Shown here piece after piece: positions 23,974 through 61,274 of a stretch of 64,000 nt of DNA (positions are counted from its first letter, which is position 1; each line of letters opens with the position of its first letter). The translations under genes and the position numbers were made by a program. This DNA is from Phaeocystidibacter luteus (GTDB taxonomy: Bacteria; Bacteroidota; Bacteroidia; Flavobacteriales; Schleiferiaceae): the NCBI RefSeq assembly GCF_008933115.1, contig NZ_WBVO01000008.1, positions 62,001 through 126,000 on the forward strand. The letters run 5' to 3'. A model generated the notes under the pieces. It did no database searches and had not been told where the DNA came from. It saw only the letters and a program-made list of their open reading frames with translations.

Positions 23974-25023
23974 CTACTCCTCTTTATCGGCTAGCGGATT
24001 CCAGCCTTGCGCTGTGAGTTCGATAGCGACGTTATCGCGGGTAACGAGGTATCTGTTTTCGTCTTCCGTGATGTGACCAATCACACTCAAGTTTGGATTG
24101 CCCTTAATCTTGTCGAAATCCTCAAGCTTAATCGTGAAAAGAAGCTCGTAATCTTCGCCACCGTTAAGTGCTACTGTAGTTGTATTCAGATTGAACTCTT
24201 CACAAAGGTCATACACCTTTGGGTCGATAGGAATCTTCTCTTCGAACAGTCGGCAACCGCGCTTTGAACCTTCGCAAAGGTGCAGAAGTTCGGAAGAGAG
24301 TCCATCTGAAATATCAATCATCGAAGTAGGAACTACATCCAGTTCGTGAAGGATTTTTACCACATCTTGACGAGCTTCTGGCTTCAGCTGACGTTCGAGA
24401 ACGTATTCATTGCCTTGGAGGTCGGGTTGAATATCTGGGTTTTCTTGAAAGACCGCCTTTTCACGTTCGAGAATTTGAAGTCCCATGTAGGCTCCACCAA
24501 GGTCGCCAGAAACTACAATGAGATCGCTCGGTTGCGCGCCGTCTCTTCGCACCACTTTCTCCGCTTTTTGCTTACCGAGCACGGTTAGGCTAAGAATCAA
24601 TCCAGAAGTCGAAGAGGTTGTATCACCACCGACGAGATCCACGTGGAATCGTTCGCAAGCCAGGCGTATTCCTGAGTACAGTTCCTCTACTGCCTCCACG
24701 GGGAATCTATTCGAAACCGCCATTGAAACCACGAGTTGGGTCGCGTTGCCGTTCATCGCATAGATGTCGGATAAGTTGACCACGGCCGCTTTATAGCCGA
24801 GGTGTTTAAGTGGCTGATAAGAGAGGTCGAAATGCACTCCTTCCACTAGCATATCGGTCGAAATGAGAGTTTGCTCATCTCGCGCTTCAATAATTGCGGC
24901 ATCATCGCCAACACCAAGAACGGTATCGTTGTACAATGGGATTTTGGAAGTGATGTGTTTTATCAGTCCAAACTCACCTAAATCACCTAGTGGTGTGCGT
25001 TGTGGGGTTTTGTCTTCGAGCAT
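23974..25023 (-). CDS. thiL: Thiamine-monophosphate kinase
   Basis: Phosphorylates thiamine monophosphate to the active cofactor thiamine diphosphate. The 349-residue protein carries the ThiL signatures GEFGLIKHI at the N-terminus, VGDDAAII (metal and ATP), STDMLVEGVHFD, and the C-terminal DISDGLSSELLHLCE. The length is close to the family norm of 320-350. It is followed closely by the GNAT gene. Upstream lies a G-rich octamer array, which starts only 19 bases from the start codon and so occupies the promoter region. No thiamine riboswitch is visible. Confidence 0.95.
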   Translation of the reverse strand: MLEDKTPQRTPLGDLGEFGLIKHITSKIPLYNDTVLGVGDDAAIIEARDEQTLISTDMLVEGVHFDLSYQPLKHLGYKAAVVNLSDIYAMNGNATQLVVSMAVSNRFPVEAVEELYSGIRLACERFHVDLVGGDTTSSTSGLILSLTVLGKQKAEKVVRRDGAQPSDLIVVSGDLGGAYMGLQILEREKAVFQENPDIQPDLQGNEYVLERQLKPEARQDVVKILHELDVVPTSMIDISDGLSSELLHLCEGSKRGCRLFEEKIPIDPKVYDLCEEFNLNTTTVALNGGEDYELLFTIKLEDFDKIKGNPNLSVIGHITEDENRYLVTRDNVAIELTAQGWNPLADKEE

Positions 25024-25300
25024 GGGGCAAAGGTAGGGAATTTGGAGGGTTGGAGGGTTGGAGGGTGAGAGGGTTGGAGGGTTAGACGCTGAGCTTGGGT
25101 TCTAAATTGAGCTAAGTCATCAAGGAAAGAGTAGTGATTAGATTTAACGTAGTGATATGATGATTTTGGAGGGTCAGAGGGTCGGAGGGTTGGAGGGTTG
25201 GAGGGTTGGAGGGTTAGACGATTTCGGCGGGTTGGAGGTGATATCCGTTATTAAACGTTTATCAACGGGTAATTCATTCTCGGCTCTCTAGGTTTGGCGC
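25024..25300. repeat. Two arrays of G-rich octamers (TTGGAGGG)
   Basis: The gap holds two tandem arrays with an eight-base period. The first (25042-25081) has five units, TTGGAGGG with one TGAGAGGG; the second (25166-25213) has six units, with TCAGAGGG and TCGGAGGG variants. Both are followed by TTAGACG. The G3 tracts with five-base spacers could form G-quadruplexes on this strand. The 84 bases between the arrays hold nothing I can name. Confidence 0.85.
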
Positions 25301-25660: not shown

Positions 25661-25716
25661 CAATCAAATCATTAATCAGGAATTAACCCATCCCGAAAGT
25701 CAACCCGAAAGCAAGT

Positions 25717-25750
25717 CCAACCCTCTAACCCTCCAACCCTCCAACCCTCT
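25717..25750. repeat. G-rich octamer array, opposite orientation
   Basis: Three to four units of the same octamer as upstream of the four-helix-bundle gene, here as the reverse complement (CCCTCCAA, one CCCTCTAA). The upstream and downstream arrays thus form inverted repeats about 0.5 kb apart with the broken gene between them. Confidence 0.82.
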
Positions 25751-25774
25751 GTCCTGATGAACCAAAAAATCCAC

Positions 25775-27238: not shown

Positions 27239-27669
27239 ATGGATATGCGTGGTGGAATACTCGAATGTGTTTCTCGCAAAACCGCTATTATCAAAACCAA
27301 CTTAGCGGACAAAAACCGCAAAAATGGTTGGTATGCGTTAAAGCGCCGTGCCTATAGCTGGGAATTCAATGCAGCTATCAATTTCATGACAGAAATAGGT
27401 GTTCCCTACACCGGTTTTGCGCTTTTTACACACCAGTATGATTTTAATATTGCGGTTTTGCGAGAACCAGGTCACGCGCATCCGCTAAGCTCATCCTCCG
27501 CGAACTCTCTCCACCACGTAAACCTCATATTCTCCGCGAGAAACCTCTTTGCCCCCGTTTCCCATAGCCTACCTCCCAAAAAACCGTTAAAACCCCTCCC
27601 CCCTTTAAACCTATCTATCCCTCCCCACATCATACCCCCGAAATCAGTTCATCACTAATTCAAGTAATC
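27239..27669. repeat. Gene-free stretch holding a 196-bp MITE-like element (27271-27466)
   Basis: The stretch between gdhA and the Spy-like gene holds an element bounded by perfect 15-base inverted repeats: TTCTCGCAAAACCGC at 27271-27285 and GCGGTTTTGCGAGAA at 27452-27466. Inside, 27335-27461 aligns over its full length with 60069-60197 in the composite array (shared GAATTCA, GCAGCTAT, GTTTTGCG, ATGATTTTAATATT and GCGGTTTTGC blocks). The 200 bases after it are C-rich and low in complexity (CCTCCGCGAACTCTC, CTCCCCACATC), like the tail of the other array. A 139-codon reading frame spans the region but is not protein-like. No target-site duplication is evident. Confidence 0.72.
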
Positions 27670-58355: not shown

Positions 58356-59258
58356 ATGCTCATCCAAAAAAACTGGTCAGTCGGAGAAATTTTGCGTCGT
58401 ACTTGGCGCATCAACCTCATCATCCTCGGTGAAGTTGGTATTGTCGTTCTCGGATACCACTATTTCGTGCAAGATGATTTTGTGGTTCCAATCTCTGTGG
58501 CCGCTATTCTGGGTACTGCGATTGCATTCTTCATTGGTTTCACGAACAACCAGGCATATGACCGTTGGTGGGAAGCCCGTAAAGTGTGGGGAATGATTGT
58601 GAACGATTCCCGTTCATGGGCTCGTTCAGTGCTCACGTACTGGGACGAGGGCGATCCGAAGCATACCGAAACAAAACATAGAATGGTCCGCCGGCACCTC
58701 GCCTGGCTACACTGTGTGAAGAATCACTTGCGTGGTTTGGAGTCAACGACCTACGCCGTATACCTCAACGCCGATGATCGAGAAAAGGTGCGGGATTCAA
58801 AGCATCAGCCCAACACGATTTTGTTGATGCAATCTCAGGACATACATCGCGGATTGAAGGAGAAGAAGCTCGACCCATTTGCCTTTAAGGCCTTGGATGA
58901 AGCTTTGGTTCGAATGACAGACCAAATGGGAATGTGTGAACGGATTAAGAACACGGTATTTCCGACAAGCTATGTGTTCTTCACGAAATTCTTCATCTTC
59001 CTTTTCATCAGCCTGAATGCTATTTCAATTCACGCCATCTTGGGATGGTGGGCTATCCTTTTTGGATGGATTATCGGGTATGTGTTTTATACGACGTTCT
59101 ACAACGGACTCACGATTATGAATCCGTTTGAGAACCTCCCATCGGACACTCCAATGAGTGCACTTACCCGCACGCTAGAAAGAAACTTATTAGAAATGTT
59201 GGATGAGCCTGACCTCCCAGAGTCGCTAGAGCCTATCCATGGAGAATACTTACTGTAA
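58356..59258 (+). CDS. Bestrophin family ion channel
   Basis: An inner membrane channel of 300 residues related to bestrophins (formerly UPF0187). Family marks: ISVAAILGTAIAFFIGFTNNQAYDRWWEARKVWG near residue 45-78 (shown here by FRTNQAYDRWWEAR-like GFTNNQAYDRWWEA), WARSVLTYW, and, late, NGLTIMNPFENLPSDTPM, which forms part of the cytosolic neck. Bacterial members form pentamers that pass anions or sodium; which ion is used here cannot be told. The stop overlaps the RidA gene start (TAATG). Confidence 0.92.
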   Translation: MLIQKNWSVGEILRRTWRINLIILGEVGIVVLGYHYFVQDDFVVPISVAAILGTAIAFFIGFTNNQAYDRWWEARKVWGMIVNDSRSWARSVLTYWDEGDPKHTETKHRMVRRHLAWLHCVKNHLRGLESTTYAVYLNADDREKVRDSKHQPNTILLMQSQDIHRGLKEKKLDPFAFKALDEALVRMTDQMGMCERIKNTVFPTSYVFFTKFFIFLFISLNAISIHAILGWWAILFGWIIGYVFYTTFYNGLTIMNPFENLPSDTPMSALTRTLERNLLEMLDEPDLPESLEPIHGEYLL

Positions 59259-59683
59259 TGAGCAAGATTAACGCTGAAGACGCCCCAAAACCAGTTGGCC
59301 TTTACCCTCACGCACGAAAAGTTGGCAACCTTCTTTTCTTATCTGGTGTTGGTCCACGTACCGCTGGTTCCGACGCCAACGATAGTGGAGTTCCGGGCCT
59401 AAAGCTCGACCATAACGGCAATTTTCTTGAGTTCGATTTTGAAGCTCAGGTGCACAGTGTGTTCAACAACGTCAAGCGCATCTTGGAGGCCTCTGGATCT
59501 AGCTGGGAGCAACTCGTAGACGTGCAGGTGTTCTTGGTAAACATGAAGCGCGACTTCCACACGTTCAACAAGATTTACGCGGAATACTTCAAGGAGAACC
59601 AGCCTTGTCGCACAACGGTTGAAATCAACAGCCTGCCTACACCCATTGCGATTGAATTGAAGTGTGTGGCGACGGTGGAGTGA
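59258..59683 (+). CDS. RidA family protein, 2-aminomuconate deaminase-like
   Basis: A YjgF/RidA-fold protein of 141 residues. The N-terminus (APKPVGLYPHARKVGNLLFLSG, with the motif VGPR) and the central segment SVFNNVKRILEASGSSWEQLVDVQVFLVNM fit the subgroup that includes 2-aminomuconate deaminase of tryptophan (kynurenine) breakdown; PCRTTVEINSLPTP includes the Arg that binds the carboxylate of imine substrates. No other kynurenine gene is in the window, so a general enamine/imine deaminase role is as likely. It is coupled to the bestrophin gene by a one-base overlap. Confidence 0.87.
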   Translation: MSKINAEDAPKPVGLYPHARKVGNLLFLSGVGPRTAGSDANDSGVPGLKLDHNGNFLEFDFEAQVHSVFNNVKRILEASGSSWEQLVDVQVFLVNMKRDFHTFNKIYAEYFKENQPCRTTVEINSLPTPIAIELKCVATVE

Positions 59684-59797
59684 GGTGAAAGTCGGCCCTT
59701 TCCGTGACCCGGCACGGGCGAAAGCACCGTGCCTATCGAAAGTTCCGACCCTATCCTAAGCCCGGCACGCGCTAAAGCGCCGTGCCTATCGAAAGTT

Positions 59798-59934
59798 CCG
59801 ACCATATCCCAAACCCGGCACGCGCTAAAGCACCGTGCCTCTTGCCTCGTTTTGCGCCATGTCCGTTCACCGACGGGTTTTTCTAGGCACTCCGATGATT
59901 TTGATTTTGGCGGTTTTGCTTTTTGCGATTTTGC
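59798..59934 (+). repeat. 137-bp direct repeat, copy 1
   Basis: Matches 60309-60445 with one difference (GTGCC here, GTGAC there). Contains the GGCACG hairpin unit, a small CCGT/ACGG stem followed by T5, and the GCGGTTTTGC core. Confidence 0.9.
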
Positions 59935-60308
59935 AGCTTGCCCGACTACCGGCGGGAAAAACACCCCCGCGAACACACCTCGGGCTAAAGCCGCGAGGCT
60001 ATGATAATTATCCCCGCCAGCCGGCGGGGAATCGCATCAGAATCCCAGCTATATCCCAAGCCCGGCACGCGCTAAAGCACCGTACCAAGCGAAGGGAATT
60101 CAGCGCAGCTATAAATTACAAAACGCATGTGGGCGATTCTCCGCACCTGTTTTGCGATTCTTGCACACTCCGATGATTTTAATATTTGCGGTTTTGCAGC
60201 TTGCCCGACTACCGGCGGGTGAAACCCGCACCGCGAACACACCTCGGGCTAAAGCCACGAGGCTATGATAATTATCCCCGCCAGCCGGCGGGGAATCGCG
60301 TTAGAATC

Positions 60309-60445
60309 CCGACCATATCCCAAACCCGGCACGCGCTAAAGCACCGTGACTCTTGCCTCGTTTTGCGCCATGTCCGTTCACCGACGGGTTTTTCTAGGCA
60401 CTCCGATGATTTTGATTTTGGCGGTTTTGCTTTTTGCGATTTTGC
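60309..60445 (+). repeat. 137-bp direct repeat, copy 2
   Basis: Second copy, offset by 511 bases from the first. It runs directly into GCGAGAAACAC, the right border of the array. Confidence 0.9.
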
Positions 60446-60539
60446 GAGAAACACACACGATGATCCACCACGCTCATCCCTCATTCTCACTACGAGCGTC
60501 CTCTCCGTGACCTCTGATTCTCTGTGTGAGGCAACCCCA

Positions 60540-61274
60540 TCAAAGCACCACCCCAAACTTCACAAACGCCGCATTCACTCCCGTTACCTGCAGGTTATAC
60601 GAAGAAGGCGATTTGCTCTCTACATCTTCAACAAAACCGGGACTAAACCTCTTATAGTTTATCTCTCGGCCAGGGTTGAAGGATTGGGCAGCTTCAATCG
60701 AAACTGAAACGCCAACATAGAGGCTCTTGGAGATGAAATAATCTATCTCTGCGTATCCCCCAAGAAAGAGCTGATAGTTGTTGTACGTGATTGGATCCTC
60801 GAAATAGTTTCCGTAGAGATTCGCGTCAGCATACTCCTGAGCAGAGTGCGAATAATCGTAAGTCGTTCTTTGGGTATTGATGCCCGCTCCGATTTGCGGA
60901 CCGTACAAAACTTGCCAATTTGTGCCAATGTCAGACATCCACAGGAATGAATAGCGGGCGTCGGCTTGGACACTGAAGTTCGAATAGGAATATTGATACT
61001 CACCCGTAGGTTCAAAATCAACATCGTCCACACCATTTGCATATATGAACATGTTGGCGTTCACCTGATGCGCGACGTTCGATCCGTAGTAGCGGAAATC
61101 TAGCCCGTCAAACCAATTGGCTGGACCGAAGCCTTGGTTTCCGCCAAAGAGTAAATCGGGACGGAAAGAAAGTCCAATTGCATAGTCTCCGGAAGTAGGA
61201 CGATTTGATTCAGTTTGTGCCGTGGCTGCATAGGAACAAGCCACAATGGCTAACGATAGCGCTATAGCCTTCAT
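60540..61274 (-). CDS. Outer membrane beta-barrel protein of unknown function
   Basis: A predicted barrel of 244 residues with signal peptide MKAIALSLAIVACSYAATAQ. Alternating aromatic strands are seen throughout (YAIGLSFRPDLLFGG, FSVQADARYSFLWM, NYQLFLGGYAEIDYFI, LYVGVSVSIEAAQ, VNAAFVKFGVVL), and the final strand could form the closing seam. No family is certain. The stop codon lies directly at the edge of the repeat array, so the array serves as its 3' region. Single-gene unit. Confidence 0.75.
   Translation of the reverse strand: MKAIALSLAIVACSYAATAQTESNRPTSGDYAIGLSFRPDLLFGGNQGFGPANWFDGLDFRYYGSNVAHQVNANMFIYANGVDDVDFEPTGEYQYSYSNFSVQADARYSFLWMSDIGTNWQVLYGPQIGAGINTQRTTYDYSHSAQEYADANLYGNYFEDPITYNNYQLFLGGYAEIDYFISKSLYVGVSVSIEAAQSFNPGREINYKRFSPGFVEDVESKSPSSYNLQVTGVNAAFVKFGVVL

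Follow-up and report, generated by a model that had tools for sequence, protein, structure and literature searches.

A BIME-like cluster of REP-like palindromes in Phaeocystidibacter luteus, probably spread by a Y1 transposase

REPs, their mosaic clusters (BIMEs) and TnpA(REP) are known from E. coli, Pseudomonas and Haemophilus, where GC-rich hairpins with a foot of the sequence GT[AG]G, and often with a stem bulge, are dispersed between genes and arranged in BIMEs as alternating, inverted pairs. For TnpA(REP), biochemical work has described the recognition of GTAG, the requirement of the bulge, cleavage at CT and strand transfer (PMC8266576), and in REPtrons copies of the same repeat form an array around a Y1 HUH gene. 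Elements of the IS200/IS605 family such as IS608 and ISDra2 encode a single-domain Y1 transposase with hairpins on both sides of its gene and move as near-identical copies with one left and one right end. The Y1 enzymes classified as TnpAY1 subclass 1.2, which are characterized by WQ and Y---Q--HH motifs, generally lack IS200-type ends, are found mostly in Cyanobacteria and Bacteroidetes and are tabulated as having no REP (Quentin et al. 2018, PMC6006769). Finally, TIRtrons contain Y1 genes (TIRYTs) with flanking inverted repeats, including examples from Acidobacteria, whose repeats in some cases come from dispersed and partly self-complementary families without a GTAG-type tag, some sharing the sequence GGGGWSAS (Di Nocera et al. 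2013, PMC3733652). Y1 genes surrounded by untagged repeats thus have a precedent, in part, in the TIRtrons, and we found no paper in the open-access literature that links subclass 1.2 to REPs.

The stretch of 64,000 nucleotides that was analysed, here called the window, contains an 850-base gap between a ridA-like gene and a convergent gene for an outer-membrane-like protein, which a repeat search of the window found to be filled by repeats. The features of this region are as follows.

59258-59683, plus strand: ridA-like gene, the left neighbour, an ORF of 141 aa whose 3' end points toward the array and whose name follows the RidA family
59711-59733, minus strand: A hairpin copy 1, in a 53-bp A-only unit, with degenerate core and a minus-strand ATAG foot (repeat search)
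59764-59786, minus strand: A hairpin copy 2, in a 53-bp A-only unit, its minus strand reading GATAG-GCACGGCGCTTTAGCGCGTGCC
59798-59934, plus strand: 137-nt repeat copy 1, an A hairpin and tail 1 (repeat search)
59817-59839, minus strand: A hairpin copy 3, its plus strand reading GGCACGCGCTAAAGCACCGTGCC
59941-59956, no strand: C hairpin copy 1, CCCGACTACCGGCGGG
59958-60083, plus strand: 126-nt repeat copy 1, with B, C' and A (repeat search)
59978-59998, minus strand: B hairpin copy 1, its minus strand reading CATAG-CCTCGCGGCTTTAGCCCGAGG
60012-60029, no strand: C' hairpin copy 1, CCCCGCCAGCCGGCGGGG
60064-60086, minus strand: A hairpin copy 4, stem base damaged (GTACC)
60204-60219, no strand: C hairpin copy 2
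60222-60347, plus strand: 126-nt repeat copy 2, 91% identical to copy 1 (repeat search)
60242-60262, minus strand: B hairpin copy 2, with ATAG foot
60276-60293, no strand: C' hairpin copy 2
60309-60445, plus strand: 137-nt repeat copy 2, A and tail 1 with one mismatch (repeat search)
60328-60350, minus strand: A hairpin copy 5, stem base damaged (GTGAC)
60540-61274, minus strand: outer-membrane-like gene, the convergent right neighbour, an ORF of 244 aa

The five A units counted in the initial annotation of this DNA were recovered with starts at 59693, 59746, 59799, 60046 and 60310, as was its 137-bp repeat, the two copies of which differ in a single position (59838, C to A), while its second pair of about 118 bp was measured as the 126-nt pair. 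The elements which that annotation had viewed as interleaved are all present; their proposed nesting gives way to a simpler layout, which opens with two A-only units of 53 bp, continues with A-tail-C-B-C' units in direct tandem, their A starts spaced by 247 and 264 bp, and ends with an A hairpin and its tail. Tails 1 and 3 belong to the near-identical 137-nt repeat and tail 2 has a different sequence. The suggestion that the last duplication was recent is plausible in light of one mismatch in 137 nucleotides, although gene conversion would have the same appearance. Every A and B hairpin of the window has the same orientation. In the first A copy, GGGCGAAAGC replaces the usual core, and the stem base is damaged in two of the five copies (60064-60086 and 60328-60350). 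The core octamer GCTAAAGC is found nine times in the window, six of these within the array, compared to an expectation of 1.7, and none of 100 shuffled sequences reached nine. Folding of the whole array as single-stranded DNA, which had been proposed as a check, gave a stability not above that of shuffled sequences (z 0.31), and we thus claim no large superstructure and consider the local hairpins alone to matter. A scan of the region from 59.2 to 61.4 kb against Rfam yielded no match up to an E value of 1. Elsewhere in the window, the tail sequence ACTCCGATGATTTTAATATTGCGGTTTTGCGAGAA occurs at 27261-27469 without A or B hairpins and partly as an inverted pair, and partial matches to the tail alone are scattered through the genome in BLAST searches. 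At 25022-25240 and 25715-25763, between thiL-like and glutamate-dehydrogenase-like genes, the G-rich 8-nt unit TTGGAGGG forms separate arrays, accompanied by a C-rich copy in inverted orientation, and this motif recurs where contig C26 ends (L050, near 731).

Hairpins A and B, which on the minus strand read (AT)AGGCACGGTGCTTTAGCGCGTGCC and ATAG-CCTCGCGGCTTTAGCCCGAGG, are built to a common design consisting of an NTAG foot, a lower stem of 5-6 bp, a one-base bulge in the 5' arm and 3 bp capped by a TTTA loop. The anatomy was scored in stretches around matches, in addition to pattern and BLAST searches of the genome. In this set, the NTAG foot is present on all 23 B hairpins (13 TTAG, 10 ATAG) and on 37 of 58 A hairpins, with GTAG accounting for four cases. 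The local hairpins are GC-rich with folding energies of -7 to -12 kcal/mol. Since B is usually followed by A at a distance of 64-91 nt (18 of 24 cases), the common unit is a composite. With its dispersed intergenic hairpins, foot tetranucleotide, stem bulge and mosaic clusters, the family resembles REPs and BIMEs, including the regular order of several REP types in repeated composites, and it shares a GGGCTTTAGCCC core with the H. influenzae REP GTAGGGTGGGCTTTAGCCCACC (PMC2817692). The mosaic REP clusters known as BIMEs match this layout, for which the initial annotation had known of no named element. Unlike in REPs, however, the foot is ATAG or TTAG instead of GT[AG]G, which makes the hairpins REP-like and not GTAG REPs, and the array in the window consists of composites in the same orientation, whereas BIMEs alternate. 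A further hairpin family, ACCACGGGCTAAAGCCCCGTGGTA, has the same core and forms mostly intergenic groups with a spacing of about 45 bp (L053 837-5989, L009 1507-1552, L027 1501-1545); it forms no array around any known transposase gene.

The array of the window is one of dozens of intergenic clusters of a species-specific, dispersed family. A pattern search with GCTAAAGCNNCGNG gave 96 matches in the 3.2-Mb draft genome, compared to 3 for the reversed control, and a BLAST search with the 850-base array as query hit 109 places; clusters of these repeats are situated at many contig ends, among them those of C1, C2, C7, C21, C23 and C26, where the draft assembly thus probably breaks, and such copy numbers are for that reason lower bounds. 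The subunits are therefore not confined to the array, and the proposal of a mobile or recombination-prone unit was a good guess given about 100 other places in this genome and the absence of the core from the two same-genus genomes that are the closest sampled relatives (G001 and G002, no copies). As expected for REPs, which are short imperfect palindromes with many intergenic copies, 78 of 81 A and B hairpins are located outside ORFs of at least 150 aa. Among 60 genomes of the family Schleiferiaceae, no other contains more than a handful of core copies. Between purQ and the gene that follows, G002 has 81 bp, compared to 956 bp filled by a cluster here. In G001, ridA, whose orthologues in same-genus genomes without the repeats are 93-97% identical, is separated by about 275 bp from a channel-like gene, without a REP array and without a counterpart of the gene at 60540-61274 at the matching place. 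The two syntenic comparisons suggest empty sites in the relatives, with the exact borders of the insertions unreadable at a DNA identity of 70-79%. The same gap in G001 (L200) holds about eight copies of a tandem unit of about 25 bp, CCTGCGAAGCCCCTGACGAAGTCAA; we rejected this unrelated repeat as precursor of the array.

Searching the genome for Y1_Tnp domains identified exactly three genes, all intact, on contigs C11, C1 and C23, in a draft assembly from which a fourth could be missing. Each of them is a single-copy gene within its own tandem array, with a unit of 114 bp on C11, a unit of 206 bp on C1 and a spacing of 164-165 bp on C23. The RAYT-type Y1 transposase whose presence had been anticipated thus finds a counterpart in three Y1 genes embedded in repeats, yet none is a canonical RAYT, an assignment we rejected because the score against the NCBIfam model NF047646 is below the cut-off (32.9 bits for the C11 protein at a cut-off of 80, with two of the three proteins matching at all); the YIxxNP motif is also absent. 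In contrast, the NCBIfam model of IS200/IS605 TnpA is matched with 83.6 bits at a cut-off of 55, and the nearest solved structure in the PDB is ISHp608 TnpA. The three proteins of 135-149 aa are 29-37% identical to each other, carry WQ, HUH and Y---Q--HH motifs with conserved HUH histidines, catalytic tyrosine and glutamine, the last motif reading YVKNQRNHH on C1, YIENQVKHH on C23 and YVRDQWCKH on C11, where lysine replaces the first histidine. By their motifs they would be IS200-like Y1 enzymes of TnpAY1 subclass 1.2, which they also resemble in size, low copy number and occurrence in Bacteroidetes, but they differ from the published description by the location of their genes in palindrome arrays and by homologues in many phyla. 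With IS200/IS605 elements they have in common the single-domain Y1 transposase and the hairpins on both sides of the gene; we do not, however, find units with one left and one right end and near-identical mobile copies, but instead three diverged single-copy genes, tandem palindrome arrays in place of one end each and many copies without a gene.

The link between enzyme and dispersed hairpins is closest on C11, where A-type hairpins in the 114-bp array flank the gene on both sides, in a layout akin to a REPtron with several copies of the dispersed hairpin around the gene. The exact A 23-mer GGCACGCGCTAAAGCACCGTGCC occurs 29 times in the examined loci, including this array. Most A copies of the C11 array lack the ATAG foot and carry AGG or ATT in its place, so the array of the enzyme and the dispersed form differ outside the hairpin. 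The hairpins of the C1 array contain a GCTAAAGC core, in some cases with ATAG followed by C, and alternate in orientation. Around none of the three transposase genes did we find hairpin B.

One scan of named genomes yielded 80 homologues from Bacteroidota, Cyanobacteria, Planctomycetota, Acidobacteriota, Verrucomicrobiota, Lentisphaerota, Chloroflexota and other phyla, 69 of which display the Y---Q--HH signature. As the tests were designed after the pattern had been seen in a subset of the same loci, their exact numbers are exploratory: a repeat common to the upstream and downstream kilobase is present at 51 of the 75 loci with enough flank, compared to 1 of 58 controls taken from the outer ends of the same loci; among the trinucleotides at the exact foot of the GC-rich hairpins that neighbour the genes, TAG ranks first, at 25 of 65 loci, ahead of one with 12; 61 of 264 hairpins carry an NTAG foot, whereas 1000 random placements gave 4.1 on average and at most 12, and the foot is found at 25 loci against a null maximum of 11; and the tagged hairpins nearest to the gene point outward, by 15:3 and 15:6 on the two sides. 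Thus 25 of the 65 homologues with flanking hairpins pass the strict test for an exact NTAG foot, which is also found on 6 of 70 distant hairpins. We rejected a canonical RAYT repeat, with GTAG and GTGG each found within a few bases of the hairpin at 10 of 65 loci and GTAG as exact foot at 3. Not every Y1 gene is located in an array, since the single one of G002 (L204) has one 31-nt repeat pair nearby.

Taken together, we assign a probability of about 0.7 to the reading that the gap is a BIME-like mosaic cluster of REP-like palindromes, for which we infer an enzyme of the TnpAY1 subclass 1.2 type as spreader; a Y1 transposase has probably spread the hairpin family. By analogy to TnpA(REP) and IS200/IS605 TnpA, the transposase would bind the NTAG-footed hairpin in single-stranded form on exposed, lagging-strand DNA, cleave near it and carry the unit to single-stranded sites elsewhere. 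Whole composite units would then be duplicated locally by unequal recombination or slippage of replication, giving rise to the tandem array and the near-identical 137-nt copies. The mobilisation part of this model builds on the precedent of TnpA(REP) biochemistry, the local duplication on the array itself, and mobility is read from the dispersal of the family and the short gaps in relatives, as the sequences analysed showed neither a transposition event nor an excision product or a target-site signature.

The strongest competitor of this reading, though an unlikely one, would be an old intergenic repeat that was passively amplified by recombination, gene conversion and slippage, with the Y1 genes belonging to unrelated IS that landed in the repeats or target them. 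Slippage ordinarily yields tandem arrays, long tails also occur alone without hairpins (at 27261-27469 of the window and in many partial BLAST matches), and an IS targeting REPs is known in ISPpu9 (PMC8450116). Chance landing, however, predicts neither that homologues in many phyla have on their flanks, at fixed distances, outward-pointing palindromes of their own that differ in sequence but agree in the TAG foot, nor that these palindromes are dispersed in their own genomes. With lower probability, the hairpins would be kept for a role in RNA or DNA, as terminator, mRNA 3'-end stabiliser or gyrase or nucleoid site, with spread by a transposase being secondary or past. Such roles have been published for REPs (PMC6006769, PMC2817692), GC-rich hairpins of the observed stability can terminate or stabilise, and the array is located between convergent gene ends; but the clusters occupy gaps between genes that are codirectional in 11 cases, convergent in 7 and divergent in 7 and thus show no preference for 3' ends, the scanned region had no match in Rfam, and the absence of the array at syntenic sites of same-genus species speaks against an essential local role. 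Under transposase-driven spread, the cluster between two convergent 3' ends may still act as incidental terminator or mRNA-end stabiliser. An artefact of assembly or repeat collapse is highly improbable, for although these repeats do break the assembly and several contigs begin or end at clusters, the copies vary in sequence and order, unique sequence flanks the array within a contig of 162 kb, and composites of similar build are found at many independent unique sites.

Beyond this genome, we lean towards the view that TnpAY1 subclass 1.2 constitutes a widespread third kind of REPtron in several phyla (Bacteroidota, Planctomycetota, Acidobacteriota and others), between IS200 and the domesticated RAYTs, whose enzymes would act on TAG-footed palindromes, mainly ATAG, and spread hairpins and composite cassettes without a gene. 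While the REP/BIME system itself is known, the link of subclass 1.2 enzymes to TAG-footed palindromes across phyla is new. If correct, a group of HUH endonucleases without a DNA partner would gain one, and for enzymes that have remained near IS200 transposases the REP tag would be broadened from GT[AG]G to NTAG, so that the transition from IS to host-resident REP becomes testable by the substrates of neighbouring subclasses. It would also explain species-specific intergenic repeats of environmental bacteria which break assemblies and are left unnamed by annotation pipelines. The hairpins linked to homologues are dispersed in their own genomes in Roseimaritima (70 copies, 0 in the control) and in an acidobacterium (30, 2 in the control), with few copies elsewhere. 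In Roseimaritima sediminicola (L137), a perfect palindrome with a 22-bp stem and a TGCGACGCGACGGCAGGC core, located at 578-642 downstream of the match, recurs between the TAG-footed hairpins around the subclass 1.2 gene.
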